The translations under genes and the position numbers were made by a program. Shown here piece by piece: positions 1,354 through 38,368 of a stretch of 39,059 nucleotides of DNA (positions within the stretch are counted from its first letter, which is position 1; every line of letters starts with the position of its first letter). Source of the stretch: a virus. The notes beneath the pieces were generated by a model. The model was given only the letters and a program-made list of their open reading frames with translations, did no database searches and had not been told where the DNA came from. The DNA lies in the IMG/VR virus record IMGVR_UViG_3300046675_000268, positions 1 to 39,059 of that record; one strand, 5' to 3'.

Positions 1354-1383
1354 CCGCGGAGCGCTTTACAGCTTCCGGCCGGC
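1354..1383 (+). repeat. Composite site S1 (full, 3-bp left spacer)
   Basis: CCGCGG-AGC-GCTTTACAGC-TTCCG-GCCGGC, starting 2 bases after the small terminase stop. One of 24 dispersed copies. Strand '+' means CCGCGG lies to the left and GCCGGC to the right. Confidence 0.9.
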
Positions 1384-1415
1384 GCGGGGGTACGGCCGGG
1401 GGACGGTGGTTGAGG

Positions 1416-1442
1416 CCGGGGGTTGAGTCTTGCTCCCCCCGG
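1416..1442. terminator. Bidirectional terminator-like hairpin
   Basis: CCGGGGG (1416-1422) pairs with CCCCCGG (1436-1442). It lies between the rightward small terminase and the leftward gene ending at 1447, so it can serve both. T-rich tails are weak. Confidence 0.5.
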
Positions 1443-1446
1443 TCTC

Positions 1447-1791
1447 CTACTTCCCGATGAAGAGGGCGAGCATCGCGGCGATGCCCGAGAGGAGTCCGCC
1501 AATTGCGCTTACGGCTGTCCACGAAATCTGGCGGGGCGGACGCACGAGCCTGGGTTCTCGTGGGGCGGGTGCACCGTGCCTGATCGGTTCGGAGCGGGAG
1601 GTCTGTTGAGCCGTTCGCACCGCAGCTCTATCGGGGCCGCGCCCGCGCCTCTGTCGCGCGCGCTTCCGCCTGTCCTTCCGGTCGCCCAGTTCAATGACCA
1701 ACCAAAGAATGAACCAGACCACGCCCGTGCCCCAGATCGGCGAGGTCACCAAAGCGATCCCAGCGGCGTCGTTGATTGCGGACCCCCTCAT
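1447..1791 (-). CDS. Small two-TM membrane protein, leftward
   Basis: A 114-residue protein encoded against the surrounding late genes. One hydrophobic helix lies near residues 11-34 (GIALVTSPIWGTGVVWFILW and on), then a strongly basic middle (DRKDRRKRARQRRGRG), then a second helix near 91-113 ending LALFIGK. Codon third positions are GC-rich as expected for a real gene. I chose the ATG at 1791; it has no clear ribosome site, and TTG/GTG codons a few residues in are alternatives. I do not recognise the family. With the basic loop between helices it could be a holin-like or exclusion protein, but nothing proves this. Confidence 0.6.
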   Translation of the reverse strand: MRGSAINDAAGIALVTSPIWGTGVVWFILWLVIELGDRKDRRKRARQRRGRGPDRAAVRTAQQTSRSEPIRHGAPAPREPRLVRPPRQISWTAVSAIGGLLSGIAAMLALFIGK

Positions 1792-1862
1792 CGGCAGCTG
1801 AGCAATAGGCGGATCGTAGCAAAGCTCTGTGATCGAATTTGCCTGGTTGGAGGTGACAAGAG

Positions 1863-2288
1863 ATGCCTCGGTACGTCGCAACGAAGGTTCCCCGTGTTCC
1901 GCGAGTCCCCGGCGTTCACCGGGTGGCGCGGGTTCGCCGCGTGCGGCCTCCGTCCCATGTTCACTACCCGCATTCGCCGGGGTCGGTGGTGCATCGGCAT
2001 CCGCATCAGGGCAACCACAACCCGCGCCCCGGGGCGCATGTTCACCACCATGCCGCCAGCGGCGGCCACCACGCGCACGCGGGCAACCACGGTCACCGGC
2101 ACGTCGCATCGGGCGGGCATCACCCGCACAAGGGTGTGCACGAGCATCACCACGTTGTGGCTGGCCGCCATCACCCGCATAAGGGTGTTCACGAGCACCA
2201 CCACGTCCCGAAGGGGCGACACCACCACCACAAGGGGAGCCACGGCCATCGGAGACACCATCACGCGCACCGGCACCACGGCGTGTAG
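1863..2288 (+). CDS. Extremely histidine-rich repeat protein
   Basis: 141 residues with 44 histidines (31%). The first 35 residues are Arg/Val/Pro-rich and basic (KVPRVPRVPGVHRVARVRR). The rest consists of His-Gly repeats: units HAHAGNHGHRHVASGG, HHPHKGVHEHHHV (twice in tandem) and HHHHKGSHGH. GGAGGTGA sits 7 bases before the ATG, an excellent ribosome site, so translation is likely. There is no signal peptide or membrane segment. Such proteins normally bind Ni, Zn, Co or Cu, or phase-separate; the basic head could bind nucleic acid. It lies in the three-gene insertion between the terminase genes, and composite site S2 starts 7 bases after its stop. Function unknown. Confidence 0.8.
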   Translation: MPRYVATKVPRVPRVPGVHRVARVRRVRPPSHVHYPHSPGSVVHRHPHQGNHNPRPGAHVHHHAASGGHHAHAGNHGHRHVASGGHHPHKGVHEHHHVVAGRHHPHKGVHEHHHVPKGRHHHHKGSHGHRRHHHAHRHHGV

Positions 2289-2294
2289 AGCCGC

Positions 2295-2315
2295 GCCGGC
2301 CGGACGCTGTAAAGC
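2295..2315 (-). repeat. Composite site S2 (no CCGCGG)
   Basis: GCCGGC-CGGAC-GCTGTAAAGC, 7 bases after the stop of the His-rich gene. The CCGCGG side is absent. Confidence 0.85.
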
Positions 2316-2332
2316 TCGCGTCTGTACCTTGC

Positions 2333-2363
2333 TTGACGCATGACGCGTCAAGGGAGTTAGATC
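2333..2363 (+). promoter_or_regulatory. Promoter with inverted-repeat operator
   Basis: Perfect inverted repeat TTGACGC-ATGAC-GCGTCAA (2333-2351). Its left arm can serve as the -35 box (TTGACG), with TTAGAT at 2357-2362 as a -10 at 18-bp spacing. The same 19-bp geometry recurs at 20801. A dimeric repressor bound here would cover the -35 and spacer of the promoter for the leader peptide and HTH gene downstream. Confidence 0.6.
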
Positions 2364-2423
2364 ATGCCTCAAGACACGGAAGACCCCGGCGGGTGCTGGA
2401 CACACCCCCGGGGCTTGGCTTGA
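2364..2423 (+). CDS. 19-residue leader peptide
   Basis: MPQDTEDPGGCWTHPRGLA, with GGGAG 8 bases before the ATG, ending 15 bases before the HTH gene. Its DNA folds as CCCCGG (2384-2389) with CCGGGG (2408-2413). The peptide at 21069-21131, just before the integrase, shares DPGG-x-x-T-(H)-PRGLA and the same hairpin design. The similarity in protein sequence and the good ribosome site support real translation. A role as a cis-acting attenuator or coupling peptide is inference. Confidence 0.5.
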   Translation: MPQDTEDPGGCWTHPRGLA

Positions 2424-2438
2424 GGAGCTGCACTCCAC

Positions 2439-3349: not shown

Positions 3350-3379
3350 CCGCGGGGCGCTTTACAGCGTCCCGCCGGC
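3350..3379 (+). repeat. Composite site S3 (full, 3-bp left spacer)
   Basis: CCGCGG-GGC-GCTTTACAGC-GTCCC-GCCGGC in the 75-base gap between the HTH gene and the large terminase, 27 bases after the HTH stop. Confidence 0.9.
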
Positions 3380-6530: not shown

Positions 6531-7167
6531 GCGCAGGTCGGTTGAGACCCAGTTCGACATTGCCGCTAAGGGCGATGGGTGGACGTTCACCGGATACGCC
6601 GCGAAGTACGGAACCAGGTCTCACGACCTCGGGGGCTTCAAGGAAACCATTCGGTCGGGCGCGTTCACCCGCGCCCTCGGTGAGGGCCAAGACGTGAGGG
6701 CCCTTATCAACCATGACGCCGGTCTGATCCTGGGGCGTACAGCCTCCGGCACGCTGAAGCTGGCCGAGGACAGCACGGGCCTTCACTACGAAGTGGACGC
6801 GCCAGACACCAGCTATGCCCGTGACCTGGCGGAGTCCATGAAGCGGGGCGACGTCACGCAGTCGTCCTTTGCTTTCCGTGTCCGTGAGGACGACTGGCAG
6901 AAGGAAGGCCGCTCGCGGCTCCGGACCCTCATCGACCTTGACCTACTCGACGTCTCGCCGGTCACGTACCCGGCGTACGAGGACACAGAGTCAGGGGTCA
7001 CCGCGGCGCGTGCTTTACAGCTCGCGGCCGGCCGACTGGGTTGGGATGAGGAGAGAGACGCGCTTGCGGCGCGTGACCTGGTGGGGGCGTGGAATCCGCT
7101 CCCACCGGAGGACAACGAAACGCTTCGGCTTGCCCTTCGGGCGATCCGGCTTAGGGGCCGTGCCTGA
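6517..7167 (+). CDS. HK97-type prohead protease
   Basis: 216 residues of peptidase family U35/S78, which removes the capsid scaffold. The start of the fold (TFTGYAAKYGTRSHDLGGFKE) is clear. The catalytic His is in INHD (His66), the nucleophile in QSSFAF (Ser116 or Ser117), and the terminal DVSPVTYPAYEDT motif is conserved in the family. The ATG at 6517 lies within the portal gene, overlapping by 14 bases. Composite site S4 is embedded near the 3' end and encodes AARALQLAAGR. No separate scaffold gene is visible; the capsid N-terminus probably serves that role. Confidence 0.93.
   Translation: MSLLERRSVETQFDIAAKGDGWTFTGYAAKYGTRSHDLGGFKETIRSGAFTRALGEGQDVRALINHDAGLILGRTASGTLKLAEDSTGLHYEVDAPDTSYARDLAESMKRGDVTQSSFAFRVREDDWQKEGRSRLRTLIDLDLLDVSPVTYPAYEDTESGVTAARALQLAAGRLGWDEERDALAARDLVGAWNPLPPEDNETLRLALRAIRLRGRA
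7001..7032 (+). repeat. Composite site S4 (full, 5-bp left spacer)
   Basis: CCGCGG-CGCGT-GCTTTACAGC-TCGCG-GCCGGC inside the protease gene. The site is kept despite coding constraint. Confidence 0.85.
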
Positions 7168-9469: not shown

Positions 9470-9888
9470 GCACTAACGCGTTGCTCGTCAAGGCTGCCAT
9501 CCAGACCGCTTTACAGCAGTCGGCCGGCCTGGTGGACGTGCCGATCATCTGGGGGCCCGACCCGAGACACCAGCCTCAGCGCTGGATTCTCCTCGGGCAA
9601 ATCCACTGGGATCACGAACGCTGGGCCACGAACAGGTCCAAAGAAGAGACGTTCACTATCGACCTGATCTCAGAGGTAATGCTTACTGCCTCTACGGCGT
9701 TCGACGCCGAAACTCAGGCCGCTGAACTCTCAGGGATTGTCGAGGACATCGTCAAGGCATCCCCCGGCTTCGGGCTCTCCGGAGTCGTCACATCCATCTA
9801 CAGCCCTGGGCGGCTGCTCTCTTTTCCCGCTGATGACCGCTGGGTTGGCCAAATGCACGGCGAACTCAAAGTCACAGCCCGCGACTAA
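9466..9888 (+). CDS. Head-tail joining / tail terminator protein
   Basis: 140 residues, starting in an ATGA overlap with the connector. Length, position and pattern (ALLVKAAIQTALQQS, then WGPDPRHQPQRWILLGQI, then ERWATNRSKEETFTIDLISEV) fit tail terminator or head-closure proteins that cap the tail tube. No catalytic motif is expected. Composite site S5 is embedded near the 5' end and encodes TALQQSAGL. Confidence 0.7.
   Translation: MSTNALLVKAAIQTALQQSAGLVDVPIIWGPDPRHQPQRWILLGQIHWDHERWATNRSKEETFTIDLISEVMLTASTAFDAETQAAELSGIVEDIVKASPGFGLSGVVTSIYSPGRLLSFPADDRWVGQMHGELKVTARD
9508..9528 (+). repeat. Composite site S5 (no CCGCGG)
   Basis: GCTTTACAGC-AGTCG-GCCGGC within the tail terminator gene. 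The CCGCGG side is missing. Confidence 0.8.
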
Positions 9889-9903: not shown

Positions 9904-10281
9904 TTGTCTCAGGTCCTCTACACGGGCCCGCTGGCTGGCGTCGTGACGCCGGACGGCACCGAGTTTCCGAAGGGCGTTCCGGTCCTGGTCTCTGACGAGC
10001 TGGCGGCGTCGCTTCTGCTTCAGACCTTCGTCGATGCGACTTCGACCCCGGCGGCTACGACCGCTACGACCGACACCACCACCACGGCGCCTACGCCGGC
10101 CGCGAGCTTTACAGCTCCCGCCGCGGTTCCGGCCCCGGCTCCCGCTCCCGCCCCGGACCCGACTCCGGCGGCTCCCGTTGCGGACCCGGCTCCGGCTGCG
10201 CCTGCTCCCGATCCGACTCCGGCCGCTGCGCCGGACCAGACCGCGACCGTCCTTGCTCCGGTTAGCGGGGTGACCGCGTAA
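9904..10281 (+). CDS. Small virion-region protein with Pro/Ala tail
   Basis: 125 residues. Residues 1-42 form a compact segment (YTGPLAGVVTPDGTEFPKGVPVLVSDELAASLL) of a type often found between connectors and tail tube in actinophages. The rest is a low-complexity Thr, Pro, Ala and Asp tail (PAPAPAPAPDPTPAAPV). TTG start with GGGGGG upstream; its last base is the first base of the tail tube ATG. Site S6 lies in the low-complexity part and encodes ASFTAPAA. Exact role unknown. Confidence 0.7.
   Translation: MSQVLYTGPLAGVVTPDGTEFPKGVPVLVSDELAASLLLQTFVDATSTPAATTATTDTTTTAPTPAASFTAPAAVPAPAPAPAPDPTPAAPVADPAPAAPAPDPTPAAAPDQTATVLAPVSGVTA
10095..10126 (-). repeat. Composite site S6 (full, 5-bp spacers)
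   Basis: GCCGGC-CGCGA-GCTTTACAGC-TCCCG-CCGCGG within the Pro/Ala-rich gene, in the opposite orientation to S1-S5 except S2. Confidence 0.85.
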
Positions 10282-11782: not shown

Positions 11783-11812
11783 CCGCGGTTCGCTTTACAG
11801 CGCCCCGCCGGC
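11783..11812 (+). repeat. Composite site S7 (full, 3-bp left spacer)
   Basis: CCGCGG-TTC-GCTTTACAGC-GCCCC-GCCGGC starting 3 bases after a stop codon. Its right end supplies the 5' arm of the hairpin at 11802-11828. Confidence 0.9.
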
Positions 11813-12315: not shown

Positions 12316-15226
12316 GAAGATTCTCCGCGTCATCATCGCGGGTGACGCGCTCGGCGCGGTCGGCGCGCTTGAGTCGCTGTCTCACGGGCTTGAGCGAGCA
12401 CATAGCGAGGCGGACACTCACGGCGGCGGGATCATGTCGTCTATGGGCGGTGCCGCTAAGGGCATCGGCCTTTTCGCTGTAGGCGCGGCGGCGTCGCTCG
12501 GGGCGGTAGCGGCCGAGATCTACCATCTCGGCTCGGGCTACGAGCAGAACCTAAACGCGATTCAGGCCTTCACTCATTCGACTAACGATCAGATGAAGTC
12601 GCTTGAGTCTCAGCTCTACTCGCTGTCGCCAAAGTTCGCGCAGATGGGCCAGACCGTTAGTGACGGCTCGCAGGCCCTTTACGAGCTGACTAAGGCGGGC
12701 GCGTCGTCTAAGGACGGCATGGCGGAACTCGTGCCGACTATGGCTCTGGCTAAGGCGACGAACACGGATTACTCCGAGTCCGCTAAGGAGATGACGCGGG
12801 TCCTTGACTCGTTCGGCCTTAAGGCGTCGGACGCATCGACGGTTGCGGACGTCCTGACGAATGCCACTCACACGAGCACGCAGACGCTTCAGGACATGGC
12901 CGATGGCCTGAAGTACACATCCGTCGCGGCGCATGACTTCGGCATTGACCTTCAGACGACGGCCGCCGTTACTGCCATGTACGCGAATGCGGGTATTCAG
13001 GGCACGCAGGCCGGTACGGCATTCCGTCAGATGCTTCTGAACCTGTCGGCTCCGACGAAGCAGGCCAAGGACGCAATCAAGGCCATTGGCCTTCAGGCGT
13101 TCGATGCTCAGGGCCACATGAAGCCGCTGTCAGACATCTTCCAGCAGTTGCAAGATAAGTTCGGCAAGGGCCTGGACACCCATAGCCTTGAGAAGATCGC
13201 ACCGGACCTTAAGGCGATATTCGGGGCCCGTGGCGTTGAGCCCATCATGGCCGCCATCAAGCAGGGCGGCGGAGGCCTTGACCAGTACATCAAGCTGATG
13301 AACCGGACGGGCGAGGCGAGCGCGATTGCGCAGGCCAAGAGCAAGGGCCTCTCGGGTACGTTCAACATGCTCAGTGCCACCATGGAGTCCGCCGCACAGC
13401 ACTTCTATATGCAGGTTGGCCCGAAGCTGGCAAACTTCCTGGACCCGTTTGTGGAGGCCCTTCCGGGCTACCTGTCGAAGGCGGCGAAGTACGGGCAAGA
13501 GATCTGGACTGCGCTTTCCGATCCGGGTAAGGCCGCGAAGGGTCCGGATGGCGGAAGCGGTTTCACGAAGGGCCTTGTTGAGGTCGGCAAGGTCGTGCAC
13601 GGCGAGGTGCTTCCGGCCCTCGGCGAGATAGGCCGCTTCGTGAAGTCGGACGTTATCCCGGTGGTTGTTCAGTTCGGGAAGATGTTCGCCACTCAGGTAG
13701 TTCCGTTTGTGGCTCGCGTGGCATCCGACATAGGCCGGATGCTGATTCCGATCCTGCGGGATGTCGGCCGATTCGTAAAGACTGAAATTGTCCCTGCGCT
13801 GAAGCAGTGGGGCGAGTTCGTTTCTACGGTCGTGATTCCGAAGATGGAACTTATCTGGACGAAGGTCCGCCCGATTCTGCAAATGCTGGCCGACTACATC
13901 CAAAAGAAGGTCGTCCCACTTCTTTATTGGGCGTTCGAGCAGATGAAGCCGCTCATGAAGGATTTCGAGGCGCTGATCTCGCAGGTCCTTGACGCGCTGG
14001 CCTCGCTCTACGGATTCCTGGCGCCGGTGATCAAGTGGCTGATTGACACTTTCGGCGGCCCGCTGATCGACGTGGTTAAGGGATTCCTTCTCGGCGTGTT
14101 CCAGATGGTTAAGGGCGTGATCGAGGTAGCGCTCGGACTTCTCGATTTCCTGAAGGGGATTTTCACCGGCGACTGGGGGAAGATCTGGCACGGACTGGCC
14201 GAGATCGTCTCTGGAGTCTTCAACTTCATTGTTGGACTTCTCCGGGCGGTAATCTTCGGCAAGATTGTGAAGATATTCGTCGAGGGCGGAAAGCTTTTGA
14301 TGGATGCCATCGAAGCGCCTTTCGAGTGGATTGCCGCACGGGTCGAATCTTTCGGCTCGGATATAGCCTACGGTTTTACGCGGCTGAAGCAGGTTGCCGG
14401 AGCGATTTGGAAGACGCTTTGGGATGACGCGACTTCGCTTCTTTCTAACGCCATGAAGTCTATGAGCGACAATGTCGTGCGGATCGGTGCGGATATCCTG
14501 AAGTGGTTCCAGGATTTGCCGGGCGAACTGGGTCGGCTTCTCGCGAACGCCGGACAGTGGCTTATCGACACCGGTACGAAGCTGCTTACCGGCCTGAAGA
14601 ATGGCCTCCTCTCCGGCGTGAAGGCGGTCTATTCGTGGTTCACCTCGGATCTGCCAACCGGGGTGAAGGGCGTCCTTTCGGACGTTGGTTCGTGGCTCGA
14701 AGACTCCGGCCTTCACATGATGGAAGGCTTCATCAAGGGCATAGAGGATATGGCCGGGAAGGTGAAGGATTCGGCCGTGGGCGTCGTCAAGGGCGCCTAT
14801 AACGGGGTGAAGTCCTTCCTAGGCATCAACAGCCCTTCGCGCCTGTATACGGAGGTCGGCGGGCACACGGGTCAGGGCTACGTCAACGGAATCGCGGCCA
14901 AGACACAGGCAGTCCATGACGCAGTGGTGGGCATGGTGACTGTGCCGGCCAACCGCTTTACAGCGGCCTTCCGTCAGCAGCAGCAGACCGCGACCACGGC
15001 GGCGGCAACGGCCGCCAGGAACGCCGGTCAACTGTGGGCCTCTACCGGAGTCGGCGGCCCGGCTCAGCCGGCCGGAGGCTTTACAGTGCCCGTCACTATC
15101 AACGTGGCCGGGAGCATCCAGGCTGAGCGGGATTTCGCTCGCACCATGTCTCAGTCGATCCGAGACGAGATCCGCCAGATAGCCCGCCGTAACGGCGGCA
15201 AGACAGGCCTTACGGGGGCCTTCTAA
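12302..15226 (+). CDS. Tape measure protein
   Basis: 974 residues, setting a tail of roughly 150 nm by the usual scaling. The N-terminal 340 residues carry the TP901 tape-measure domain (LTKAGASSKDGMAELVPTMALAKATNTDYSESAKEMTRVL and TAAVTAMYANAGIQGTQAGTAFRQMLLNL). A hydrophobic, helical centre follows, then a C-terminal SPSRLYTEVGGHTGQGYVNGI motif. It starts with GTG at 12302, overlapping the frameshifted chaperone by 14 bases, with GGGGG upstream. Sites S8 and S9 lie about 100 bp apart in the 3' end. Confidence 0.95.
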   Translation: MAAGEKILRVIIAGDALGAVGALESLSHGLERAHSEADTHGGGIMSSMGGAAKGIGLFAVGAAASLGAVAAEIYHLGSGYEQNLNAIQAFTHSTNDQMKSLESQLYSLSPKFAQMGQTVSDGSQALYELTKAGASSKDGMAELVPTMALAKATNTDYSESAKEMTRVLDSFGLKASDASTVADVLTNATHTSTQTLQDMADGLKYTSVAAHDFGIDLQTTAAVTAMYANAGIQGTQAGTAFRQMLLNLSAPTKQAKDAIKAIGLQAFDAQGHMKPLSDIFQQLQDKFGKGLDTHSLEKIAPDLKAIFGARGVEPIMAAIKQGGGGLDQYIKLMNRTGEASAIAQAKSKGLSGTFNMLSATMESAAQHFYMQVGPKLANFLDPFVEALPGYLSKAAKYGQEIWTALSDPGKAAKGPDGGSGFTKGLVEVGKVVHGEVLPALGEIGRFVKSDVIPVVVQFGKMFATQVVPFVARVASDIGRMLIPILRDVGRFVKTEIVPALKQWGEFVSTVVIPKMELIWTKVRPILQMLADYIQKKVVPLLYWAFEQMKPLMKDFEALISQVLDALASLYGFLAPVIKWLIDTFGGPLIDVVKGFLLGVFQMVKGVIEVALGLLDFLKGIFTGDWGKIWHGLAEIVSGVFNFIVGLLRAVIFGKIVKIFVEGGKLLMDAIEAPFEWIAARVESFGSDIAYGFTRLKQVAGAIWKTLWDDATSLLSNAMKSMSDNVVRIGADILKWFQDLPGELGRLLANAGQWLIDTGTKLLTGLKNGLLSGVKAVYSWFTSDLPTGVKGVLSDVGSWLEDSGLHMMEGFIKGIEDMAGKVKDSAVGVVKGAYNGVKSFLGINSPSRLYTEVGGHTGQGYVNGIAAKTQAVHDAVVGMVTVPANRFTAAFRQQQQTATTAAATAARNAGQLWASTGVGGPAQPAGGFTVPVTINVAGSIQAERDFARTMSQSIRDEIRQIARRNGGKTGLTGAF
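14944..14964 (-). repeat. Composite site S8 (no CCGCGG)
   Basis: GCCGGC-CAACC-GCTTTACAGC in the tape measure 3' region, encoding PANRFTAAF. The same left half (GCCGGC-CAACC-core) recurs at S18 in an unrelated gene. Confidence 0.8.
15067..15087 (-). repeat. Composite site S9 (one core mismatch)
   Basis: GCCGGC-CGGAG-GCTTTACAGT, encoding AGGFTVP in the tape measure gene. S17 carries the same GCCGGC-CGGAG-GCTTTACAG block and encodes AGGFTAP. Confidence 0.75.
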
Positions 15227-15274: not shown

Positions 15275-18200
15275 ATGTCTACAACTCTTGGTGTTCACAT
15301 CGGCTGGGATGCGAACCTTCCGGACCAGTACGTCAAGTACAGCGACGTGTCCGGCTACGTGACGCAGGTGGATACGCAGCGGGGCCGCTCGACGGAGCTG
15401 GACGACATCCAGACCGGTACCGCAACCGTCGCGCTCGACAACTCGGACGGCCGGTTCACTCCGGGCCGCGCCTACGGCAAGGAACTGCTTCCCGACAACA
15501 TTCGGACCTCGACCGGTTGGACCAGCCACAGCACGGGGTTCACGGGGGGAACGAATACGACCCTGAGTTCTGCATCCGCGCACACGCTGTCGTGGACAGC
15601 CAGCCTCAAGGCCGTTGTGTCCGCAGGGGTGGCGGGAAACCGCATCGTCCGGACTTCGACTGTCCCAGTGACTCCAGGACTCCAGTACCGGGCCTCGGCA
15701 ATGTCGATGGCGCTCACGGGGACGCTTCAGGCTCAGATGGCAATCCGGTTCTACGACTCTTCCGGGAACGACCTCGGCAACGGCACCGACTACGACACGA
15801 CATGGAAGCAGTACGCGGACGTCGTCCGCGCATCGATGCCGGTGGCCTACCACCGGATGAACGACGCCGGAGGCAACTCCTGTGCCCCGACTGCGGGGCG
15901 GGACCCGATGGTCACGTACAACGTGACGGCTGGCGCCGCTGGCTCCTCGTGGGCCGCTGGCGGCACCGCTTCGGCAGGCGCGTTCAATGGCACGTCTTCC
16001 GTTGCGGAGCCTTGCGGTATCCCCCTGGCGACTGTCGTGAACAACGCCGCGTCGGCCGGGGTATCTTCGGTCGAGTTGTGGTTCAACACCACCACCCCGG
16101 GCGGTCTTCTGGCCGATGCCCCTTCGGCGCTGATGGCTAGCGGTGGCTACAACCCTCCCGTGCAGTACACCATCAGCAGCGCGGGCACTCCGGTGACCGG
16201 CGGCGCGCTGTTCCCTGTGGCCTACATCGGCACGGACGGCTACCTGTACTGCCAGCAAAACGGGTACATGGCGAGCCCGCCAAAGAGCACATTCCCGGTT
16301 AACGACGGCCTTTGGCATCACCTGGTGATTGCTGGCAGTGCTTGTTACCTCGACGGGGTTCAGTTCGGCACGGGGACCGTGAGCCTTTCGCGCCCAGTCC
16401 TCGGCTATGTGGACTTCTCCGCCTCTGCGCCGTCGGGTGCGTGGGTCGCTAAGCCGACTACGGGCTGGTTCAAGGGCAGCATGGCCGATGTGGCGCTGTA
16501 CCGCCACGCGCTGACGCCTCAGACAGTCGCAGACCACTACCGGCATGGCGTGGCAGGGCTCCGTCCCGTGCAGTCCACGGGCAGCGCGTACCCACTCCCG
16601 TGGGGGCTCCTCACCAGTGGGGTCACCGCGCCGGCGAATGCCTTTACAGCGGCCGTTGAAGTCGTCACCGGCAACGCGGGGACGTTCTACTTCGACTCGT
16701 TCTCTCTGCGCACGGTCTCACCGTTCTACGGCCGTATCCGGCCGCGTCGGCGGGTCCGGATCTTCGCCACGACCGGACAGAACTTGATGCCTCCGGGTAT
16801 GAACCTCGGCTATCAGACGTACAGCGGCATCCCCGCTGGAGTGGATGACAACGAAACCGGGACGTGGATTCTCGCGAGCGGGACGAACCTTTCGTTTGAC
16901 CCGTCGAGCGGCGTGACAACGTATGCCGCTAACTCGTCGTCGGTTTCAGGGCTCTCGCTCTATGGGCCATCAGGCAACGGGATTTCGGTCCCGTGGATGT
17001 TGCTGCCCGGGAACACGTACACCTTCCAATGCCAGGTTGCATGCTGGCGGTTCGCTGCGAACAGCACAGGCGTAACCATCGGCATCAACACGACCGTGAA
17101 CTCTCAGCCGGGTTCTTCGACGTACTTCAACGGCTCGGTACCGACTCAGCACATCACCGTGGGCGACGTGTCTTGGAAGACGGTTTCGTGGACGTTCACG
17201 ATCCCCACGACCTACACGCAGCCCGAATTTCTGCTCACGGTCTTCACCAGCGAAACCGTGTCCTCGGGCACGACGTTTGGATGGCAAACCGCCCTCAGGA
17301 ACCTTCAGCTCGTCGATGTGACCAACGGCCAGACCATCCCGGCCTATCAGGCCGGTGACGCCACCATGCCCGTGTTCGTGGGCGTGGCGGACAAGTGGGA
17401 GAGCACCACGGAGTACGACCAGGTTGCGCAGATGCAACTGTCGTGCTCGGACATGATGCGGGCTCTCGGCGAGTCTCAGATGTCAAGCGCGCCTCAGTCG
17501 CTGGGCTTCCGACCTGACTGGAACTGCATAGGCTCCTGGGACCTCAGCCAGCAACTCGACCTAAACGGCGACTGTGCGAATGTCGCCCCCAATCAGCTAT
17601 TGGGTACGGCTCAGGTCTACTCGGCTAACACCGCGTCCGTGAGCAACATGTTCATTAGCGAGGCTCCGAACGTCAGCCTTCCGGGGCGCTATCTTCCCCA
17701 GGGGAACGGCGGCATCAACTTCCAAACGGCGCTATGCCAGTACTTGCTTTCATTCGGGAAGCTTCCGGCTAAGGGCTCGGTCGAGTTCTGGTTCCGGCCG
17801 TTCAACAACGCGGGGACTAACGACGTCTGGAACGGCGGCGACAACCTGATCTGTGGGTCAGGGCCTTTCTTGAGCATGTATATCGGGTCCGGCGGGGTTG
17901 GCCAGGTGTCGTGTGGGTGGAACGGCCGTAAGGCCACTTCGACTAACGTCGCGCCGGGTTCCCCGGCGAACCTGATGACCCGTGGTGGCCACGTGGCTAT
18001 GGAGGTCATCACCTCGGGCGGTGCGTCGCCCACGGCTTCGGTGCAGGTCTTCTACAACGGGATATCTGTCGTCTCGTCTAGCGGCGAGTCGTTCGGCCCG
18101 GTCGCCGAGCAGTACAACGGCCACTCTTCGGCGTTCTCGATCGGCGGTGACCGAAATTTCACCGACCCGATTTCGGGGGTTTCGCTGGCTCAGTTCTGTG

Positions 18201-20713: not shown

Positions 20714-20743
20714 CCGCGGAACGCTGTAAAGCGCTCGGCCGGC
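20714..20743 (+). repeat. Composite site S13 (full, 3-bp left spacer)
   Basis: CCGCGG-AAC-GCTGTAAAGC-GCTCG-GCCGGC, beginning at the base after the holin stop and 18 bases before the operon terminator. It is the only 3-bp-spacer copy with the TGTAAA core in this orientation. Confidence 0.9.
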
Positions 20744-21068: not shown

Positions 21069-21131
21069 ATGGGTGACCCCGGCGGTGCGCTAACACCCCG
21101 GGGTCTGGCCAGTCTGGAAGGACTGACATGA
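21069..21131 (+). CDS. 20-residue leader peptide overlapping the integrase start
   Basis: The peptide MGDPGGALTPRGLASLEGLT ends in TGA overlapping the integrase ATG (ATGA), so its translation would couple to integrase translation. It shares DPGG-x-x-T-PRGLA with the peptide at 2364-2423. Its DNA has a perfect 8-bp stem, GACCCCGG (21075-21082) with CCGGGGTC (21098-21105). No strong ribosome site precedes the ATG. Confidence 0.5.
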   Translation: MGDPGGALTPRGLASLEGLT

Positions 21132-23643: not shown

Positions 23644-23664
23644 GCTTTACAGCGCATGGCCGGC
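23644..23664 (+). repeat. Composite site S15 (no CCGCGG)
   Basis: GCTTTACAGC-GCATG-GCCGGC, 2 bases after the stop of the gene at 23267-23641. Confidence 0.85.
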
Positions 23665-24051: not shown

Positions 24052-24534
24052 ATGGGAACCGAACGAGTGATCAAGGCTTCTAATGCCGAGATCGCGGCGC
24101 AGCTTGAGGCCGGTAAGACCACGGCCGAACTCGCCGAGAAATACGGTGTGCAGCCTCAGTCGATCAGACGTGTCGCCCGGCTGGCCGGATGGGGCCCTGG
24201 GCGTGCCGCCAGCACTCGCGTGCTGCCCTGGCAGGGCATCGGCCCGGCCGCTCACTCGCCCGCTGCGAGGGGTCTCCGTGCGGCGCTCCGCGTTGAGGCT
24301 GTAGCCGAAGAGCAGGAGATCAGCCGCGAGGAGGCGGCAGAGCTGGAGCTGAAGGGCCGCAACCTGGTCACCTTCCGGAACTGGAAGGCGGAGCGGGACG
24401 CCACGGACACTGTCGTCATGCTTGACCGGGACCTTGGTCCCGACCCCGGCAACCCGGCGTCGCCGGAGCATGGGCTCCTGTACTACGCCAAAAGGCGGCA
24501 GGACACGCCCAAGGATCAGTATTACCAGCTGTAA
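24052..24534 (+). CDS. HTH DNA-binding protein, immunity repressor candidate
   Basis: 160 residues. A helix-turn-helix near 18-46 (KTTAELAEKYGVQPQSIRRVARLAGW) is followed by a linker and a charged helical region (VEAVAEEQEISREEAAELELKGRNL). It is the first gene of the early arm, follows the regulatory region with the SOS-type box and promoter, and is closed by its own terminator. From memory, cluster A phages keep their repressor close to the Cas4-type nuclease, as here. I therefore rate it the best candidate for the protein that binds the 24 composite sites; no direct evidence. ATG chosen because the upstream frame stops at 24049. Confidence 0.75.
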   Translation: MGTERVIKASNAEIAAQLEAGKTTAELAEKYGVQPQSIRRVARLAGWGPGRAASTRVLPWQGIGPAAHSPAARGLRAALRVEAVAEEQEISREEAAELELKGRNLVTFRNWKAERDATDTVVMLDRDLGPDPGNPASPEHGLLYYAKRRQDTPKDQYYQL

Positions 24535-25476: not shown

Positions 25477-26324
25477 CGGCCACACACCGGTCCGTCTCAC
25501 AGCTCACCACCTGGGCCCGCTGCGGAGAGTCCTACAGGCTCGAACGAGTCGCTAGGGCCCCGCAGACGCCCGCCGCGTGGACACTCCAGGGCACGGCCGT
25601 ACACGCGGCCGTAGAAGCCTTCGAGCGCTCCGGGCGGGTGATCGGTCATGACGGCGCGCTGGAGGTCTACTACGCGGCTTGGGACGCCGGTCTAGCAGAG
25701 ATGCAGGCCCGGGAGCCCGACATGTCGAAGTGGCTCACCGGCTCGAAGACGACAGGCTTTACAGATGCTGGCCGGCGCCGCTCGCGCGGAGCCGATCAGG
25801 TCATCGGCTACTGCCTTGCTGTCCGGTCAAGTCCGTTCGTGATCTGGGAGTCCCCAGACGGCCCCGCCGTCGAGTTGGAGTTCCGCATCACGCTCGGTGG
25901 CGTCGAAGTCGTCGGCTTCATCGACCAGGTTCTAGAAGCCCCTGACGGGGGCTTGCATGTGCGAGACCTCAAGACCGGAACCAAGCTTCCCGACAGCCCG
26001 CTTCAGCTCGGCGTCTACGCCGAAGCCATAGAGCAGCAGTACGGGATTCGCCCCCGCTGGGGCGACTACTTCATGTGCAAGAACAACGCACCGACCAAGC
26101 CAGCCGACTTGAGCGGCTACACGGCGGACCGTCTGGGCCGCTGGTTCGCGCGGCTGGACCGCGCAGTCAAAGCAGGCGTCTTCATCCCGTCCCCCGGGGA
26201 CGCCTGCCGAACGTGTGCCGTGGCGCGCTGGTGCGACGCGGTGGGGGAAGACCGAGACACCTACGGAGGCTCAGACCTTGACCCTGAAGTACAACACGTC
26301 TCTGAAGTACGGCCCCGGGCATGA
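25473..26324 (+). CDS. Cas4/RecB-type PD-(D/E)XK exonuclease with Fe-S cysteines
   Basis: 283 residues if read from CTG at 25473. The nuclease core has Asp151 in GFIDQV and Asp165/Lys167 in RDLKTG. Cys17 (WARCGES) with Cys245, Cys248 and Cys254 (CRTC-x5-C) makes the four-cysteine set of Cas4/AddB Fe-S nucleases. The N-terminal part (QLTTWARCGESYRLERV, GTAVHAAVEAFE) lies upstream of the first conventional start (GTG 25638), so that start would remove Cys17. In frame upstream only CTG remains, overlapping the previous stop as CTGA, with GAGGA upstream. Probably a 5'-end-processing enzyme for replication or recombination. Site S16 embedded. Confidence 0.85.
   Translation: MTATHRSVSQLTTWARCGESYRLERVARAPQTPAAWTLQGTAVHAAVEAFERSGRVIGHDGALEVYYAAWDAGLAEMQAREPDMSKWLTGSKTTGFTDAGRRRSRGADQVIGYCLAVRSSPFVIWESPDGPAVELEFRITLGGVEVVGFIDQVLEAPDGGLHVRDLKTGTKLPDSPLQLGVYAEAIEQQYGIRPRWGDYFMCKNNAPTKPADLSGYTADRLGRWFARLDRAVKAGVFIPSPGDACRTCAVARWCDAVGEDRDTYGGSDLDPEVQHVSEVRPRA
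25756..25776 (+). repeat. Composite site S16 (one core mismatch)
   Basis: GCTTTACAGA-TGCTG-GCCGGC in the exonuclease gene, encoding GFTDAGR. Confidence 0.7.
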
Positions 26325-26676
26325 CGCTCCCTGGCTGACCGTCGAGTCCGACAACGAGGAGGAGCTACACGCCGCGTTGGCGTCGCTCGCGGCTCCGGAC
26401 TCTGACTTCTTCGCTGTGCTCGGCCGTGCCATCGGCGCGTTCAAGACCGGTGGCGTCCTGGGTGAGGTTCTGGGGGCTCAGGTGCTTCCCCCGGCTCAGG
26501 CTTCGGCTGTGCCGGCCGGAGGCTTTACAGCTCCCCCCGCGGTTCCGCAGGGTGGCGGTGAGGCGAAGTACTGCGCTCACGGGCTGCGCAACTTCAAGAG
26601 CGGCACCAACAAGAACGGCAAGGCGTACAGCGGCTATTTCTGCTCGGCGAACCAGTGCCCGCCCGAGTGGGGCTGA
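26278..26676 (+). CDS. Protein with C-terminal Cys/His motif
   Basis: 132 residues from TTG at 26278 with GGAGG 8 bases upstream, overlapping the nuclease end. The N-terminal 85 residues form a small domain (LKYNTSLKYGPGHDAPWLTVES, then EELHAALASLA). A Pro/Ala linker leads to a C-terminal zinc-finger-like segment, CAHGLRNFKSG then YFCSANQC, seen in actinophage proteins next to recombination nucleases. It may be a single-strand-binding or nuclease-partner protein. Site S17 lies in the linker. Confidence 0.7.
   Translation: MTLKYNTSLKYGPGHDAPWLTVESDNEEELHAALASLAAPDSDFFAVLGRAIGAFKTGGVLGEVLGAQVLPPAQASAVPAGGFTAPPAVPQGGGEAKYCAHGLRNFKSGTNKNGKAYSGYFCSANQCPPEWG
26511..26542 (-). repeat. Composite site S17 (full, 5-bp spacers)
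   Basis: GCCGGC-CGGAG-GCTTTACAGC-TCCCC-CCGCGG, encoding PAGGFTAPPAV. The surrounding peptide resembles that of S6 and S9, as expected if the DNA site rather than the protein is conserved. Confidence 0.88.
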
Positions 26677-29018: not shown

Positions 29019-29374
29019 GTGACATCCGGGTTGAGCTGGACTTGGAACCGGCAGCCCTCGCCGGTATCTACCGGTGGATGAGCTGGCCCCTGGCCCTGTG
29101 CGAGGAATCCACGCCTACGGCGGATGACCTCACGGAGCTGGTGACACACGTGGTGACGGAGGTTGCCGCTGTTGACCCCGGCTCGTACGTCTCGCTCGGC
29201 CGAGTGCTGGCCATCCGAGACACGGAGATGCCCGACGCGATCGAGGTCGCGCTAGTCATCGGCGTTGCCTGGATCGGCGACGACAACGACCCCGACGCCG
29301 CGCCGGCCAACCGCTTTACAGCAGGCGCCGCGGACTGGACCCACGACATTCTGAACGAGGGGGAGAGCAAGTGA
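29015..29374 (+). CDS. Hypothetical acidic protein (119 aa)
   Basis: ATG in an ATGA overlap. Acidic product (IRVELDLEPAALAGIYRWMSWP, then DDLTELVTHVVTEVAAVDPGSYVSLGRV) with no recognised motif. Site S18 is embedded near the 3' end and encodes PANRFTAGAAD. Its stop overlaps the start of the phosphoesterase (GTGA). Confidence 0.7.
   Translation: MSDIRVELDLEPAALAGIYRWMSWPLALCEESTPTADDLTELVTHVVTEVAAVDPGSYVSLGRVLAIRDTEMPDAIEVALVIGVAWIGDDNDPDAAPANRFTAGAADWTHDILNEGESK
29302..29333 (-). repeat. Composite site S18 (full, 5-bp spacers)
   Basis: GCCGGC-CAACC-GCTTTACAGC-AGGCG-CCGCGG near the 3' end of the gene at 29015-29374. Confidence 0.88.
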
Positions 29375-30726: not shown

Positions 30727-30756
30727 GCCGGCCGCGAGCTGTAAAGCGAACCGCGG
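30727..30756 (-). repeat. Composite site S19 (full, 3-bp spacer)
   Basis: GCCGGC-CGCGA-GCTGTAAAGC-GAA-CCGCGG, beginning at the base after the sigma-like gene stop. Its last base is the first of the terminator stem. Confidence 0.92.
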
Positions 30757-32829: not shown

Positions 32830-33065
32830 GCGGGACGGCGGCAACCGCGAGAGCGCGGGACCTCAAGGCCGGTCAACGCGTCTACATCGGCCACCTCAAG
32901 GCCTGGTACAGCCTGGCCGCTGACGCCAAGACGCATCGTCTCTCAAAGGACGTGATCCGGCTGGAGTTCAGCCAGATACCCGATGAGTACCGCCACGCCA
33001 ACACGGCTATGCGGGTCCGGCCGCCGCGCCGAAGGGTCGGCGCCGACGCCGGCCGCGAGCTGTAA
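32826..33065 (+). CDS. Small basic protein (79 aa)
   Basis: RDLKAGQRVYIGHLKAWYSLAADAKTHRLSKDVIRLEFSQIP, then an Arg-rich tail. It may form a partner of the gene it overlaps. Its TAA stop (33063-33065) lies within the core of site S20, so stop codon and site are one sequence. Confidence 0.65.
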   Translation: MSGTAATARARDLKAGQRVYIGHLKAWYSLAADAKTHRLSKDVIRLEFSQIPDEYRHANTAMRVRPPRRRVGADAGREL

Positions 33066-33077
33066 AGCGCGCCGCGG
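33048..33077 (-). repeat. Composite site S20 (full, 3-bp spacer) containing a stop codon
   Basis: GCCGGC-CGCGA-GCTGTAAAGC-GCG-CCGCGG; the TAA in the core ends the gene at 32826-33065. The left 21 bases match S19 exactly, although the genes are unrelated. Confidence 0.92.
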
Positions 33078-34170: not shown

Positions 34171-34571
34171 GTGAAGATCCCCCCGCCCCTGTCGTGACGC
34201 TTGAGGGCGTGCCCGCCGAAACAGGTAGTGCCTTCATCCCCGACTATAAGTTCCCCGGGACCACGCGCCTGCGGACGGCGATCGGCTCGACACTGCTTTT
34301 CGCGCTCATCAATGACCCCCGAGTCACTGATCCCGAGGTGCGAGAGCGGTACCAGAGCCATCGTCACGACTTCCAAGACACAGAGCTTGTGGTGAACGGC
34401 GAGACCTATCCGGCGGTCGAAGTCCAAGACCCCGAGATCGGTATCCGCGTTCGTGCTGCGACCGTGAACGGCTTCACCGTGGTTACCACGTCCCCGGTTG
34501 ATCAGGACGTCCCCGGCGTCCGCGTGACGTGGCCGGAGAGTGGCGACGCCGACGCCGGCGAAGCGCTGTAA
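34167..34571 (+). CDS. Hypothetical protein coupled to the lipoprotein
   Basis: 134 residues starting in an ATGA overlap with the lipoprotein. FPGTTRLRTAIGSTLLFALINDPRVTDPEVRERYQSHRHDFQDTELVVNGETYPAVEVQDPEIGIRV reads as a mixed alpha/beta soluble protein, possibly a cytoplasmic partner. Its TAA stop lies inside the core of site S21. Confidence 0.65.
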   Translation: MSEDPPAPVVTLEGVPAETGSAFIPDYKFPGTTRLRTAIGSTLLFALINDPRVTDPEVRERYQSHRHDFQDTELVVNGETYPAVEVQDPEIGIRVRAATVNGFTVVTTSPVDQDVPGVRVTWPESGDADAGEAL

Positions 34572-34574
34572 AGC
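34554..34574 (-). repeat. Composite site S21 containing a stop codon
   Basis: GCCGGC-GAAGC-GCTGTAAAGC. The TAA in the core ends the gene at 34167-34571. The CCGCGG side is replaced by the hairpin at 34575-34601. Confidence 0.88.
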
Positions 34575-36026: not shown

Positions 36027-36035
36027 GAGACAGGG

Positions 36036-36066
36036 AACCCCCGTGGCTTCGGCTTCGGGGGTTTCT
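36036..36066 (+). terminator. Terminator between the two Lsr2 genes
   Basis: AACCCCCG (36036-36043) pairs with CGGGGGTT (36056-36063), followed by TCTTCG. It separates the two paralogues. Confidence 0.75.
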
Positions 36067-36083
36067 TCGTGCTCTCACACTGT

Positions 36084-36104
36084 GCCGGCCAGGTGCTTTA
36101 AAGG
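36084..36104 (-). repeat. Composite site S22 (one core mismatch)
   Basis: GCCGGC-CAGGT-GCTTTAAAGG in the gap between the two Lsr2-like genes, a likely promoter region. Confidence 0.7.
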
Positions 36105-36191
36105 TAGTGGCATGGGTGATTCGGGTTGCTTGGATGTGCGTGGGTCGGGCATCATCACCGACGACAGGCTTTCTACAGAATGGTTGGACCA

Positions 36192-36533
36192 GTGGCGAAG
36201 CGGGTTATCGAAGTTTTTCACGACGACTTGGACGGCGCCGAGGGTGCCAGCACCGTGAAGTTTGGTCTTGACGGCAAGTCGTATGAGATCGACCTCGGGT
36301 CGAAGAACGAAAAGGCGCTCAGGAAGGTCCTGGAAAAGTACGTGGCAGCGGCCACCCCGGCACGGGCGAGCGACTCGGCGCCGGGGCGCCGGAAGTACGG
36401 CACCGGCCCGGTTCGCCGGGACACGAAGCACATTCGTGCGTGGCTTCGCGGTCAGGGTGTCGAGATCAGCGACCGGGGCCGCATCCCTACGGACCTCATG
36501 GACCGCTACCAGGCGGCGAACCCGGGTCGCTGA
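36192..36533 (+). CDS. Lsr2-like nucleoid protein 2
   Basis: 113 residues from GTG 36192, the closer of the two to canonical Lsr2: VIEVFHDDLDGAEGASTVKFGLDGKSYEIDLGSKNEKALRKVLEKYV, a basic linker, then IRAWLRGQGVEISDRGRIPTDLMDRYQAA with the DNA-binding R-G-R tripeptide intact. An ATG at 36180 (four residues earlier) is an alternative. With its own upstream region holding site S22 it is regulated apart from paralogue 1. Confidence 0.88.
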   Translation: MAKRVIEVFHDDLDGAEGASTVKFGLDGKSYEIDLGSKNEKALRKVLEKYVAAATPARASDSAPGRRKYGTGPVRRDTKHIRAWLRGQGVEISDRGRIPTDLMDRYQAANPGR

Positions 36534-36704: not shown

Positions 36705-36799
36705 GGTCCCCCTGGGGTCGGTAGCGCCTGCGAGGCGCGGACAGGCCCCCACTGTATGGCTTGCCGTGCGCGACGTCAGCGTTTCCCGAGCACGCCGAC

Positions 36800-37024
36800 C
36801 TAGGCAAGCTCGGTCGAGTAGACCTCCGGCGTTGGGTGGCTCGCCTCTTGACGCGACAGGTGTCGCTGGGCGTTGAACTCCGCATCAGCCTTGATGTCTG
36901 CACCGCGAGAGTGAGCACCGCACTCACAGCGCCAGTGATATATCGGCGGATTGAATGGACGGCTAGGCAGGCTGCTCGCTTGCGGCCCGGCGCCGATGAG
37001 CGTCCGCAGAACCTTCCCGATCAC
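36800..37024 (-). CDS. Small protein with a Cys/His cluster
   Basis: 74 residues from GTG 37024. The middle YHWRCECGAHSRGADIKADAEFNAQRHL has a C-x-C-x-x-H pattern with a later His, like a very small zinc-binding domain. GGAG is 11 bases upstream. The first 25 residues are less convincing. Confidence 0.5.
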   Translation of the reverse strand: MIGKVLRTLIGAGPQASSLPSRPFNPPIYHWRCECGAHSRGADIKADAEFNAQRHLSRQEASHPTPEVYSTELA

Positions 37025-37043
37025 ACCTGGTCTCCTGTCTCTT

Positions 37044-37676
37044 TTACCAGAGCCCGTCTTGGCCTACGGCTTCGGCGTGGCGCTCCAGCTTGATTGGGAC
37101 CATGAGGCCCCGGAAGTAAGGCCCATACTTCACGAGTATCGGTTCCTCGGGGTCACGAATCATCCAAGCGGCCCGGCGTTCGCTCTTGTCCGACTTCACC
37201 AGCCGGAAGCGGGACGTGAGGCCCATGTCCAACACGAACACGCTCGACGGGTCCTCGTAGCGCTCGAACAATGCGGCCAGGCCGCGCCAGGCGGCATCCG
37301 GGGTCATGCCGGTGGCGTCCTCCACGGCCTCACGGGACGAGCCGATCTGTAGCACCAGCCCGTCACCGGGGAACCAGGACAGCACGACGTCTTGCTTCGG
37401 GTGCTGGCGACAAAACGAGGTCACGGCATCGAGCCCTTCGCGGGGGATCTCGATCCTGACGGTTCCGCGGTTCGCTTTAAAGCCTTCGGCCGGCGTCCAG
37501 TCGTACGCGGCGGCGTACGGGTCGCCCCCGAGGATCGTCACGCCGTCGGCGTCCACGGTGAAAAGGACGCTGCGGATGGTGGCGTTCTTCTTGTGGACGT
37601 GGGCGACGTTGCCCGCAACGCGGCAAAGCGCGGCGGCGTCCATGGTCCAGGTGGCTTGAGGCTCGCTCAGGGCCAT
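37044..37676 (-). CDS. DnaN-like sliding-clamp protein
   Basis: 210 residues, shorter than bacterial DnaN (about 370), so probably two of the three clamp domains. TIRSVLFTVDADGVTILGGDPYAAAYDW and RIEIPREGLDAVTSFCRQHPKQDVVLSW fit clamp subdomains, and PEEPILVKYGPYFRGLMVPIKL resembles the conserved DnaN C-terminus. The start is uncertain: AGGAGG directly abuts the ATG at 37676, while a CTG two codons on would have normal spacing. Site S23 is embedded. Confidence 0.7.
   Translation of the reverse strand: MALSEPQATWTMDAAALCRVAGNVAHVHKKNATIRSVLFTVDADGVTILGGDPYAAAYDWTPAEGFKANRGTVRIEIPREGLDAVTSFCRQHPKQDVVLSWFPGDGLVLQIGSSREAVEDATGMTPDAAWRGLAALFERYEDPSSVFVLDMGLTSRFRLVKSDKSERRAAWMIRDPEEPILVKYGPYFRGLMVPIKLERHAEAVGQDGLW
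37465..37494 (+). repeat. Composite site S23 (full, palindromic core, 3-bp spacer)
   Basis: CCGCGG-TTC-GCTTTAAAGC-CTTCG-GCCGGC in the 5' half of the leftward clamp gene. It is the only 3-bp-spacer copy wholly inside a gene. Confidence 0.9.
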
Positions 37677-37687
37677 CCTCCTATCAG

Positions 37688-37715
37688 ACGAGAAAGGCCC
37701 CGCCGAAGCGGGGCC
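37688..37715 (-). terminator. Leftward terminator upstream of the clamp gene
   Basis: GGCCCCGC (37696-37703) pairs with GCGGGGCC (37708-37715); read leftward it is GGCCCCGC-TTCG-GCGGGGCC followed by TTTCTC. It ends the gene at 37729 and means the clamp gene needs read-through or its own promoter. Confidence 0.88.
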
Positions 37716-37728
37716 ATCTAGGGGGCGT

Positions 37729-38010
37729 CTATCTCATGTGCTCGGGCCGGTCATTGGCCTTGGCGAACAGGTCCGCGACCATGGCCGGATCGGCCAAGCT
37801 GGGGTCATAGAACGCGTCTGTGTAGCTGGGTCGCTGCTTGCGTTCGTCCAGGACCGCGCGCAGCGCCTTGACGGGCTCTAACCGCTCGTTGCGACGCTCG
37901 CAGTGCCTCAGCGTGGTGCAGTAGATAGAGGTGTCACACGCGTACTCGTGGTCACGGATGATCCGTGCCTCTTGCTGGTCGAGCCACGCATAGAGCTCGC
38001 GGTCATTCAC
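37729..38010 (-). CDS. Hypothetical helical protein (93 aa)
   Basis: GTG start at 38010, overlapping the end of the zinc-ribbon gene. NDRELYAWLDQQEARIIRDHEYACDTSIYCTTLRHCERRNERLEPVKALRAVLDER is helical with three cysteines, and it ends FAKANDRPEHMR. It resembles short actinomycete phage proteins of unknown function. It is followed by a strong terminator. Confidence 0.6.
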   Translation of the reverse strand: MNDRELYAWLDQQEARIIRDHEYACDTSIYCTTLRHCERRNERLEPVKALRAVLDERKQRPSYTDAFYDPSLADPAMVADLFAKANDRPEHMR

Positions 38011-38188
38011 AGTCGGCCCCGTAGCGCTGGGGGAAGTCGAGGGCGCACTCATCGCACACGAACTCGTCGTCCAGCTCGGAGAGGATGCCGTGCTCGGTCC
38101 AGTTGCCACACTCGGAGCACTGATCCAAGCCGTCCGGTTCGTCTACCTCGTACTCTCCCAAGTCGTCACAGTCGCCTATGGTGAACAA
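38003..38188 (-). CDS. Zinc-ribbon protein, start uncertain
   Basis: About 60 residues. QCSECGNW then FVCDECALDF gives two CxxC pairs, a zinc ribbon, in an acidic protein. GGAGG (38189-38193) lies directly against an in-frame TTG (38188), too close; the codon at normal spacing is ATA (38179), a rare start. It overlaps both neighbours, so translation is coupled. Confidence 0.6.
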   Translation of the reverse strand: MFTIGDCDDLGEYEVDEPDGLDQCSECGNWTEHGILSELDDEFVCDECALDFPQRYGADCE

Positions 38189-38334
38189 CCTCCTTCGCAG
38201 CAGTCCGGGTAGCAGGCCAGGCAGCATGCGCAGTCTCCGCAGAAGTCCACGCCGCATTCGTAGACGACGGAGGCCCGCGACTGGCGGGCCTCTCGCACCA
38301 TCTGTTCAACTGTCCGGGCTTGGACGATTGCCAT
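38176..38334 (-). CDS. Cys-rich small protein (52 aa)
   Basis: ATG 38334. A helical start (AIVQARTVEQMVREARQSRAS) is followed by a cysteine-dense tail, ECGVDFCGDCACCLACYPDC and on, with eight cysteines. It may bind zinc or an Fe-S cluster. Its stop overlaps the ribbon-protein start region. Confidence 0.65.
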   Translation of the reverse strand: MAIVQARTVEQMVREARQSRASVVYECGVDFCGDCACCLACYPDCCEGGCSP

Positions 38335-38347
38335 CCCTAGCCCGCCC

Positions 38348-38368
38348 TCTGTAAAGCTCCCCGCCGGC
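38348..38368 (+). repeat. Composite site S24 (one core mismatch)
   Basis: TCTGTAAAGC-TCCCC-GCCGGC, ending at the base next to the stop codon of the leftward gene at 38369-38875. Confidence 0.75.

Follow-up and report, generated by a model that had tools for sequence, protein, structure and literature searches.

Composite repeated sites confining two otherwise purged GC hexamers in a viral genome, and their probable role as stoperators

Only a few phage groups are known to have stoperators, and the sites described so far are single asymmetric sequences. In cluster A mycobacteriophages, the immunity repressor binds 20–30 scattered sites, some of which lie in promoters, while most block elongation (PMC6550527). 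Two domains of a cluster A repressor take part in reading its site (PMC9283540). The sites of this cluster (e.g., in L5, Bxb1 and TipsytheTRex) are asymmetric, about 13 bp long, bound by a monomer and in most cases aligned with the direction of transcription. We describe a family of 24 composite sites in an actinobacterial phage, the IMG/VR virus record IMGVR_UViG_3300046675_000268 (39,059 bases, the whole of which is referred to as the window). Each site combines a near-palindromic core with the hexamer GCCGGC, and half of them add the hexamer CCGCGG; neither hexamer occurs anywhere else in the window. With a probability of roughly 0.7, the sites serve as stoperators in an immunity system of the cluster A/R4 type, in which the hexamers would form a separate module. 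One module of such a site is a word that is otherwise completely removed, which would exclusively link the control of lysogeny to an apparent restriction pressure.

Composition and exclusivity of the sites

The sites are 21–32 bp long and consist of the 10-bp core and one or two GC hexamers. They were proposed in a first-pass annotation of the same sequence, and every one of them was recovered (Table 1). The tally of the cores given there agrees with the recount: 16 contain TTTACA/TGTAAA exactly, three are TTTAAA forms, one of which has an additional mismatch, and five others carry one mismatch. The two variable central positions of the core read T..C, G..A or T..A in the window, and never G..C. 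GCCGGC lies exactly 5 bp from the core in 24 of 24 sites, as had been claimed, and this does not depend on anchoring the search on GCCGGC. An unanchored search returned 24 cores matching at least 9 of the 10 positions (block-shuffled sequence: mean 2.2, maximum 5), all with GCCGGC at offset 5 only, so that cores and GCCGGC correspond one to one. The 12 sites with CCGCGG on the opposite side are also those listed before, the distance to the core being 3 bp (S1, S3, S7, S13, S19, S20, S23) or 5 bp (S4, S6, S12, S17, S18). In the shuffle comparison that the annotation had called for, the pattern core-N5-GCCGGC gave 27 matches, which include second-strand echoes of near-symmetric sites, against 0.57 expected and at most three in any of 100 dinucleotide shuffles. 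The family is real, and it is stronger than first claimed.

The unusual part of the family, missed by the first-pass annotation, is the exclusivity of the two hexamers. All 24 copies of GCCGGC and all 12 copies of CCGCGG in the window belong to a site. Outside the sites, Markov estimates predict 36–52 copies of GCCGGC and 27–38 of CCGCGG, and none of either is found. The relatives available for comparison are metagenomic contigs of IMG/VR, several of them from related data sets, and one contains a sequence 100% identical to the window. Those with composite sites (type A) have about 77–89% nucleotide identity to the window, a similar density of sites to its 24 in 39 kb and most sites at the same places. 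Across 287 kb of this clade, the confinement is near complete: GCCGGC is found outside the sites six times against 427 expected, and CCGCGG once against 292. The leftover type A copies of GCCGGC are located mostly at two recurring places of the early region and have no core (L124, 13754 and 15056; L128, 6069; L129, 10278 and 11680; L135, 11480).

The structure of the sites, their exclusivity and their conservation are read directly from the letters. The anatomy was derived from 161 sites of the window and eight relatives, 129 of which are distinct. The core consensus is xCT[T/G]TA[A/C]AGx, the centre being invariant, and the two bases preceding GCCGGC are Y and then mostly S. Where CCGCGG is present, it lies at 3 bp (48 sites) or 5 bp (28 sites), with one exception. 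The arms are close to all-or-none. At offset 3, 48 exact copies of CCGCGG stand against three that match five of six letters, and at offset 5, 28 stand against five; of the 121 arms close to GCCGGC beside exact cores, 114 are exact. The column identity across the clade is about 93% in the core and 97% in GCCGGC, compared with about 75% in the spacer and flanks, which equals the background. The core-to-GCCGGC spacing, on whose conservation the first-pass annotation had staked its proposal, is conserved in the relatives.

An artefact of chance or of the composition of GC-rich DNA has a practically vanishing probability and was ruled out by the shuffles (27 matches against 0.57 expected), the fixed spacing and the conservation above that of the flanks. 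The pattern is also not equally common in unrelated DNA: in about 85,000 bacterial and archaeal genomes (about 257 Gb), the full pattern gave four single matches, with no multi-site locus and no cellular prophage. Sites keeping the arms with a varying core were considered as well. The scan with CCGCGG-N3-GCTNNNNAGC-N5-GCCGGC returned the same clade and single matches in GCCGGC-rich contigs, which are probably coding chance.

Purging of the hexamers in relatives and other phages

Streptomyces has enzymes that cut GCCGGC and enzymes that cut CCGCGG, and restriction is the presumed cause of the purging. The depletion concerns only the exact words; their one-letter neighbours have observed-to-expected (O/E) ratios of 1.17 and 1.21. 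It is therefore the mark of restriction avoidance and not of a graded binding protein, and avoidance of a graded transcription-factor site was rejected on the same ground. Deamination of methylated cytosine was rejected as the sole cause, since the depleted words have drifted to many neighbours and not just by C-to-T changes. As in other phages that avoid restriction sites, exact words (GCCGGC, CCGCGG, CTCGAG, CTGCAG and others) are depleted here and their neighbours are not. In ordinary avoidance, however, the surviving copies are not all fixed in one repeated regulatory site.

Purging without composite sites occurs too: in phiC31 and Shawty both words are purged, in phiBT1 and R4 only CCGCGG (R4 has 97 copies of GCCGGC against 65 expected), and in VWB and phiSASD1 neither. 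phiC31 has no more than two copies of each hexamer, and these form GCCGGC/CCGCGG pairs, spaced by about 43 bp, in a conserved intergenic element (18217-18264 and 37075-37121). Shawty shares this element, and its only GCCGGC and CCGCGG lie there at about the same distance (17003-17051).

A closer comparison is offered by a sister clade, type B, with terminases 86–88% identical. Its core is changed to GCTGTACAGC, it has no composite sites and GCCGGC is not purged (e.g., 34 copies against 61 expected in contig G014), while CTCGAG, CTGCAG, GGATCC and GTCGAC still are. In the terminase tree, rooted by the outgroup contig G015, type B forms a single clade, with type A branching off on either side. 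Because of this nesting, the composite sites and the avoidance of GCCGGC were more likely lost together than gained, although the contrast represents a single evolutionary event and the tree is rooted by just one long branch. In G015, GCCGGC is found nine times against 58 expected, and seven of the nine copies belong to a repeated motif, (A/G)TTACTCTGCGCTCA(C/G)-GCCGGC, which has a partial inverted second half, lies away from the cores of this contig and is unrelated to the core of the window. The two groups constitute a natural experiment, as module and avoidance have both disappeared from the sister clade and the outgroup uses the same word in another motif. Taken together, the loss in type B, the terminase tree and the motif of G015 suggest that purging and composite sites are causally linked. 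A literature search returned no paper describing GCCGGC in phage operators.

One explanation of this link is that the stoperators are sensitive to DNA modification. Host methylation of GCCGGC and CCGCGG would gate the repressor, and the words would be purged elsewhere since unmodified copies are cut upon entering restricting hosts. The hexamers would then be read by a recogniser of the restriction/modification type, e.g., a host methyltransferase, and the silencing sites would respond to the modification state of the DNA. The dangerous words would be kept only where they serve the switch, while G015, and phiC31 with Shawty, would have put them into other repeated regulatory elements. This would account for the purging of the exact hexamers only, for the almost invariably exact arms at the core and for type B, which has stopped purging GCCGGC and not the other four words. 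A precedent is GANTC, the CcrM word of Alphaproteobacteria, a methylated palindrome that is infrequent in the genome as a whole and preserved at regulatory positions (PMC3973325). In that case the bias is about two-fold and the methylation is proven, whereas here the confinement is near complete and the methylation putative. No methyltransferase was recognised among the scanned phage proteins, and the contrast between types A and B, being one change, could reflect a host switch. The modification-dependent explanation is considered unlikely.

The core as a putative operator and its candidate repressor

In the early region of the relatives, bare cores without GCCGGC are located a few bases 3′ of TTGACA or TTGACG, which places them in the spacer between the −35 and −10 elements. 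Promoter-spacer cores are also present in type B and in G015, with about 0.01 expected per core. This is therefore an operator position. The window itself is an incomplete genome: contigs of 100% identity hold about 6 kb between its ends (39059 and 1), including several early promoters, and it is in this missing part that the relatives place promoter-type cores. In type B the repressor is 45% identical, and the changed core still occupies the early promoter spacer. The core is very probably the operator of the repressor.

The candidate repressor is a protein of 160 aa (amino acids; Table 1). Its AlphaFold2 model (pLDDT 82) shows a three-helix helix-turn-helix (HTH) domain, followed by a bridge helix and by another helical domain that terminates in two strands. 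A Foldseek search of the PDB with this model gave a sole match below 1e-3, the complex of a cluster A2 immunity repressor with DNA (7r6r; E 5e-5, probability 1.00), and the top matches in BFVD include the SWU1 immunity repressor. Judged on this predicted fold, a small repressor with an HTH and a Stoperator domain appears to be present. The gene is found in the relatives wherever the region is covered, with 38–91% identity, and it is flanked by the integrase and the exonuclease. The R4 repressor is likewise encoded close upstream of its exonuclease, and the R4-like Streptomyces phages have a similar order, with the repressor ahead of the exonuclease, helicase, primase and sigma factor. They differ in that GCCGGC is not avoided in R4, and no similarity of the sites was seen. 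The DnaB-like helicase of the window is nearest to those of cluster A mycobacteriophages, with 47% identity.

The parallel with stoperators drawn by the first-pass annotation is thus well supported by the promoter-spacer operators of the relatives, the predicted repressor fold and the positions fixed across the relatives. As in cluster A, many copies of one site are scattered over the genome, most of them outside promoters, and the relatives have some operators in early promoters of the region that the window lacks; the small two-domain repressor and the nearest helicase are further likenesses. The form of the site is different: instead of a short asymmetric sequence in one orientation, it is a palindromic core at a fixed distance from one or two purged GC palindromes, found in both orientations. 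The promoter-spacer cores, predicted fold, gene order, helicase and cluster A precedent make stoperators with a changed site design the best reading. The phiC31 repressor operators are also palindromic and repeated across a Streptomyces phage genome. They are conserved inverted repeats (CIR) of the CCTACTCACGTGAGTAGG type, mostly intergenic, with no hexamer module and an unrelated repressor. A phiC31-type system (CACGTGAGTAG-type inverted repeats with the c repressor) was rejected, as the CIR differs and there are no homologues of phiC31 early genes.

We infer the following mechanism. The candidate repressor would bind the near-palindromic core GCTTTAAAGC, of which GCTTTACAGC and GCTGTAAAGC would be one-sided variants. 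At a bare core between the −35 and −10 elements of an early promoter, binding would block initiation. At the remaining sites, located at gene ends and in genes of both genome arms, the repressor complex on the DNA would be a roadblock that arrests RNA polymerase, and the prophage would be kept silent. These sites would need a second module, namely GCCGGC at 5 bp from the core, and about half of them carry CCGCGG as well, on the opposite side and 3 or 5 bp from the core.

Several points weigh against this mechanism. The TM-score of the 7r6r match is 0.46, which is moderate, and the match is therefore evidence at the level of the family only. BLAST of the candidate repressor gave no similarity to known repressors. 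The sites, with 21–32 bp, a palindromic core and 11 copies on the + strand and 13 on the − strand while nearly all genes are rightward, depart from the cluster A design. The model leaves the purging of GCCGGC and CCGCGG elsewhere unexplained, and none of the phage genes compared cleanly tracks the GCCGGC module.

A role outside transcription, such as partition, packaging, recombination or nucleoid organisation through another phage or host protein, would agree with sites in all functional regions and both orientations, and with the two Lsr2-like proteins encoded. It is very improbable, given the cores in promoter spacers of the relatives, the link of the 3-bp CCGCGG to gene ends and the repressor gene of cluster A type (by predicted fold).

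Recognition of the hexamers and placement of the sites in genes

GCCGGC is probably a separate functional module, and CCGCGG, where present, also looks like a separate strict module. We think that the hexamers are read by a separate recogniser with an enzyme-like strictness, which could be a second domain or another protein, possibly of the host. The grounds are that the hexamers are all-or-none, that they are removed from the rest of the sequence and that the outgroup uses GCCGGC in its repeated motif without the core. The requirement for two proteins proposed by the first-pass annotation is plausible. If a second protein or DNA modification does read the hexamers, phage immunity would depend on more than the repressor.

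Alternatively, one protein would read the whole site, with two repressors back to back on the core, their second domains on the GC arms, and the purging an unrelated avoidance of restriction sites. The geometry of the arms is quasi-symmetric, with core-NNN-Y-S-GCCGGC on one side and core-NNN-CCGCGG or core-NNN-C-S-CCGCGG on the other, and the use of two domains on one site has its cluster A precedent (PMC9283540). Purging is also common in Streptomyces phages, as seen in phiC31, Shawty, phiBT1 and R4. Such an arrangement would nevertheless require that both arms are purged words by coincidence, and restriction should act against the 24–36 retained sites. The strictness of the arms (48 exact CCGCGG against three near-exact at offset 3), the GCCGGC of G015 in a different motif apart from the cores and the promoter cores without GCCGGC also speak against it. 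Recognition by one protein is possible, and less probable than not.

Two candidates for the reader were considered among the phage proteins. The HTH_31/DUF5753 protein (31571-32440) was rejected, as the type A contig G005 has composite sites and the flanking genes and lacks this one. The Lsr2-like proteins stay a candidate, since the corresponding region is absent from the type B contigs compared. In the window, a DUF6879 gene adjoins the HTH_31/DUF5753 regulator (31072-32440); this pair is also present in G015 and missing from type B. The two Lsr2-like genes are consecutive (35658-36533), with S22 between them.

The position of the sites relative to genes, defined by open reading frame (ORF) calls, depends on the arrangement of the arms. 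All five sites with CCGCGG at 5 bp lie in genes, and six of the seven with CCGCGG at 3 bp lie at gene ends (Fisher p = 0.015), which bears out the earlier description; among the latter, S20 overlaps a stop codon and S23 is in a gene. That the sites fall in unrelated reading frames, as the first-pass annotation had put it, holds only for a part of them: eight of the 13 in-gene sites have the same frame, in which they encode peptides of the form xPAxxF(T/K)(A/V). These eight (S6, S8, S9, S10, S14, S17, S18 and S23) thus place a PAxxF(T/K)(A/V) peptide in unrelated proteins.

The core had further been called reversible, and both orientations are indeed seen. A special explanation is not needed, because the core is near-palindromic and 10 of the 11 asymmetric in-gene cores have TTTACA on the coding strand (p = 0.012). 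TTTACA holds no stop codon in any frame, whereas TGTAAA holds TAA in one. The order of TTTACA followed by GCCGGC is found in eight of 10 sites between genes versus three of 11 inside genes (p = 0.03). The reversible core fits the avoidance of in-frame TAA within genes. The core also supplies a TTA codon, which is rare in high-GC actinobacteria, in two structural genes (7015 and 9511).

Table 1. Composite sites and genes of the putative immunity region in the window
Feature	Coordinates	Strand	Arrangement or description	Position or remark
S1	1354..1383	+	CCGCGG-N3-core-N5-GCCGGC	immediately 3′ of terminase small subunit
S2	2295..2315	-	core-N5-GCCGGC	
S3	3350..3379	+	CCGCGG-N3-core-N5-GCCGGC	ahead of terminase large subunit; kept in relatives
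S4	7001..7032	+	CCGCGG-N5-core-N5-GCCGGC	within head protease gene
S5	9508..9528	+	core-N5-GCCGGC	in gene
S6	10095..10126	-	CCGCGG-N5-core-N5-GCCGGC	in gene
S7	11783..11812	+	CCGCGG-N3-core-N5-GCCGGC	intergenic
S8	14944..14964	-	core-N5-GCCGGC	within tape-measure-size gene
S9	15067..15087	-	core-N5-GCCGGC	within tape-measure-size gene
S10	16630..16650	-	core-N5-GCCGGC	in gene
S11	19409..19429	-	core-N5-GCCGGC	in gene
S12	19977..20008	+	CCGCGG-N5-core-N5-GCCGGC	in gene
S13	20714..20743	+	CCGCGG-N3-core-N5-GCCGGC	past gene end
S14	23080..23100	-	core-N5-GCCGGC	within integrase gene
S15	23644..23664	+	core-N5-GCCGGC	past gene end
S16	25756..25776	+	core-N5-GCCGGC	within exonuclease gene
S17	26511..26542	-	CCGCGG-N5-core-N5-GCCGGC	in gene
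S18	29302..29333	-	CCGCGG-N5-core-N5-GCCGGC	in gene
S19	30727..30756	-	CCGCGG-N3-core-N5-GCCGGC	immediately after sigma-like gene
S20	33048..33077	-	CCGCGG-N3-core-N5-GCCGGC	overlaps stop codon
S21	34554..34574	-	core-N5-GCCGGC	
S22	36084..36104	-	core-N5-GCCGGC	separates two Lsr2-like genes
S23	37465..37494	+	CCGCGG-N3-core-N5-GCCGGC	within leftward gene
S24	38348..38368	+	core-N5-GCCGGC	end of leftward gene
Large serine integrase	21128..23200	+		temperate lifestyle
Candidate immunity repressor	24052..24534	+	160 aa; N-terminal HTH, bridge helix, C-terminal helical/beta domain (predicted)	
Exonuclease	25638..26324	+		downstream neighbour of the candidate repressor, as in R4

Two further observations concern the genome as a whole. 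In the record IMGVR_UViG_3300046678_000420 (89,947 bases), two related phage genomes of about 45 kb follow one another, and the latter is identical to the window; this is either a tandem or an assembly join. An open frame with many histidine and glycine repeats, partly conserved in the relatives, is located at 1863-2288 of the window.

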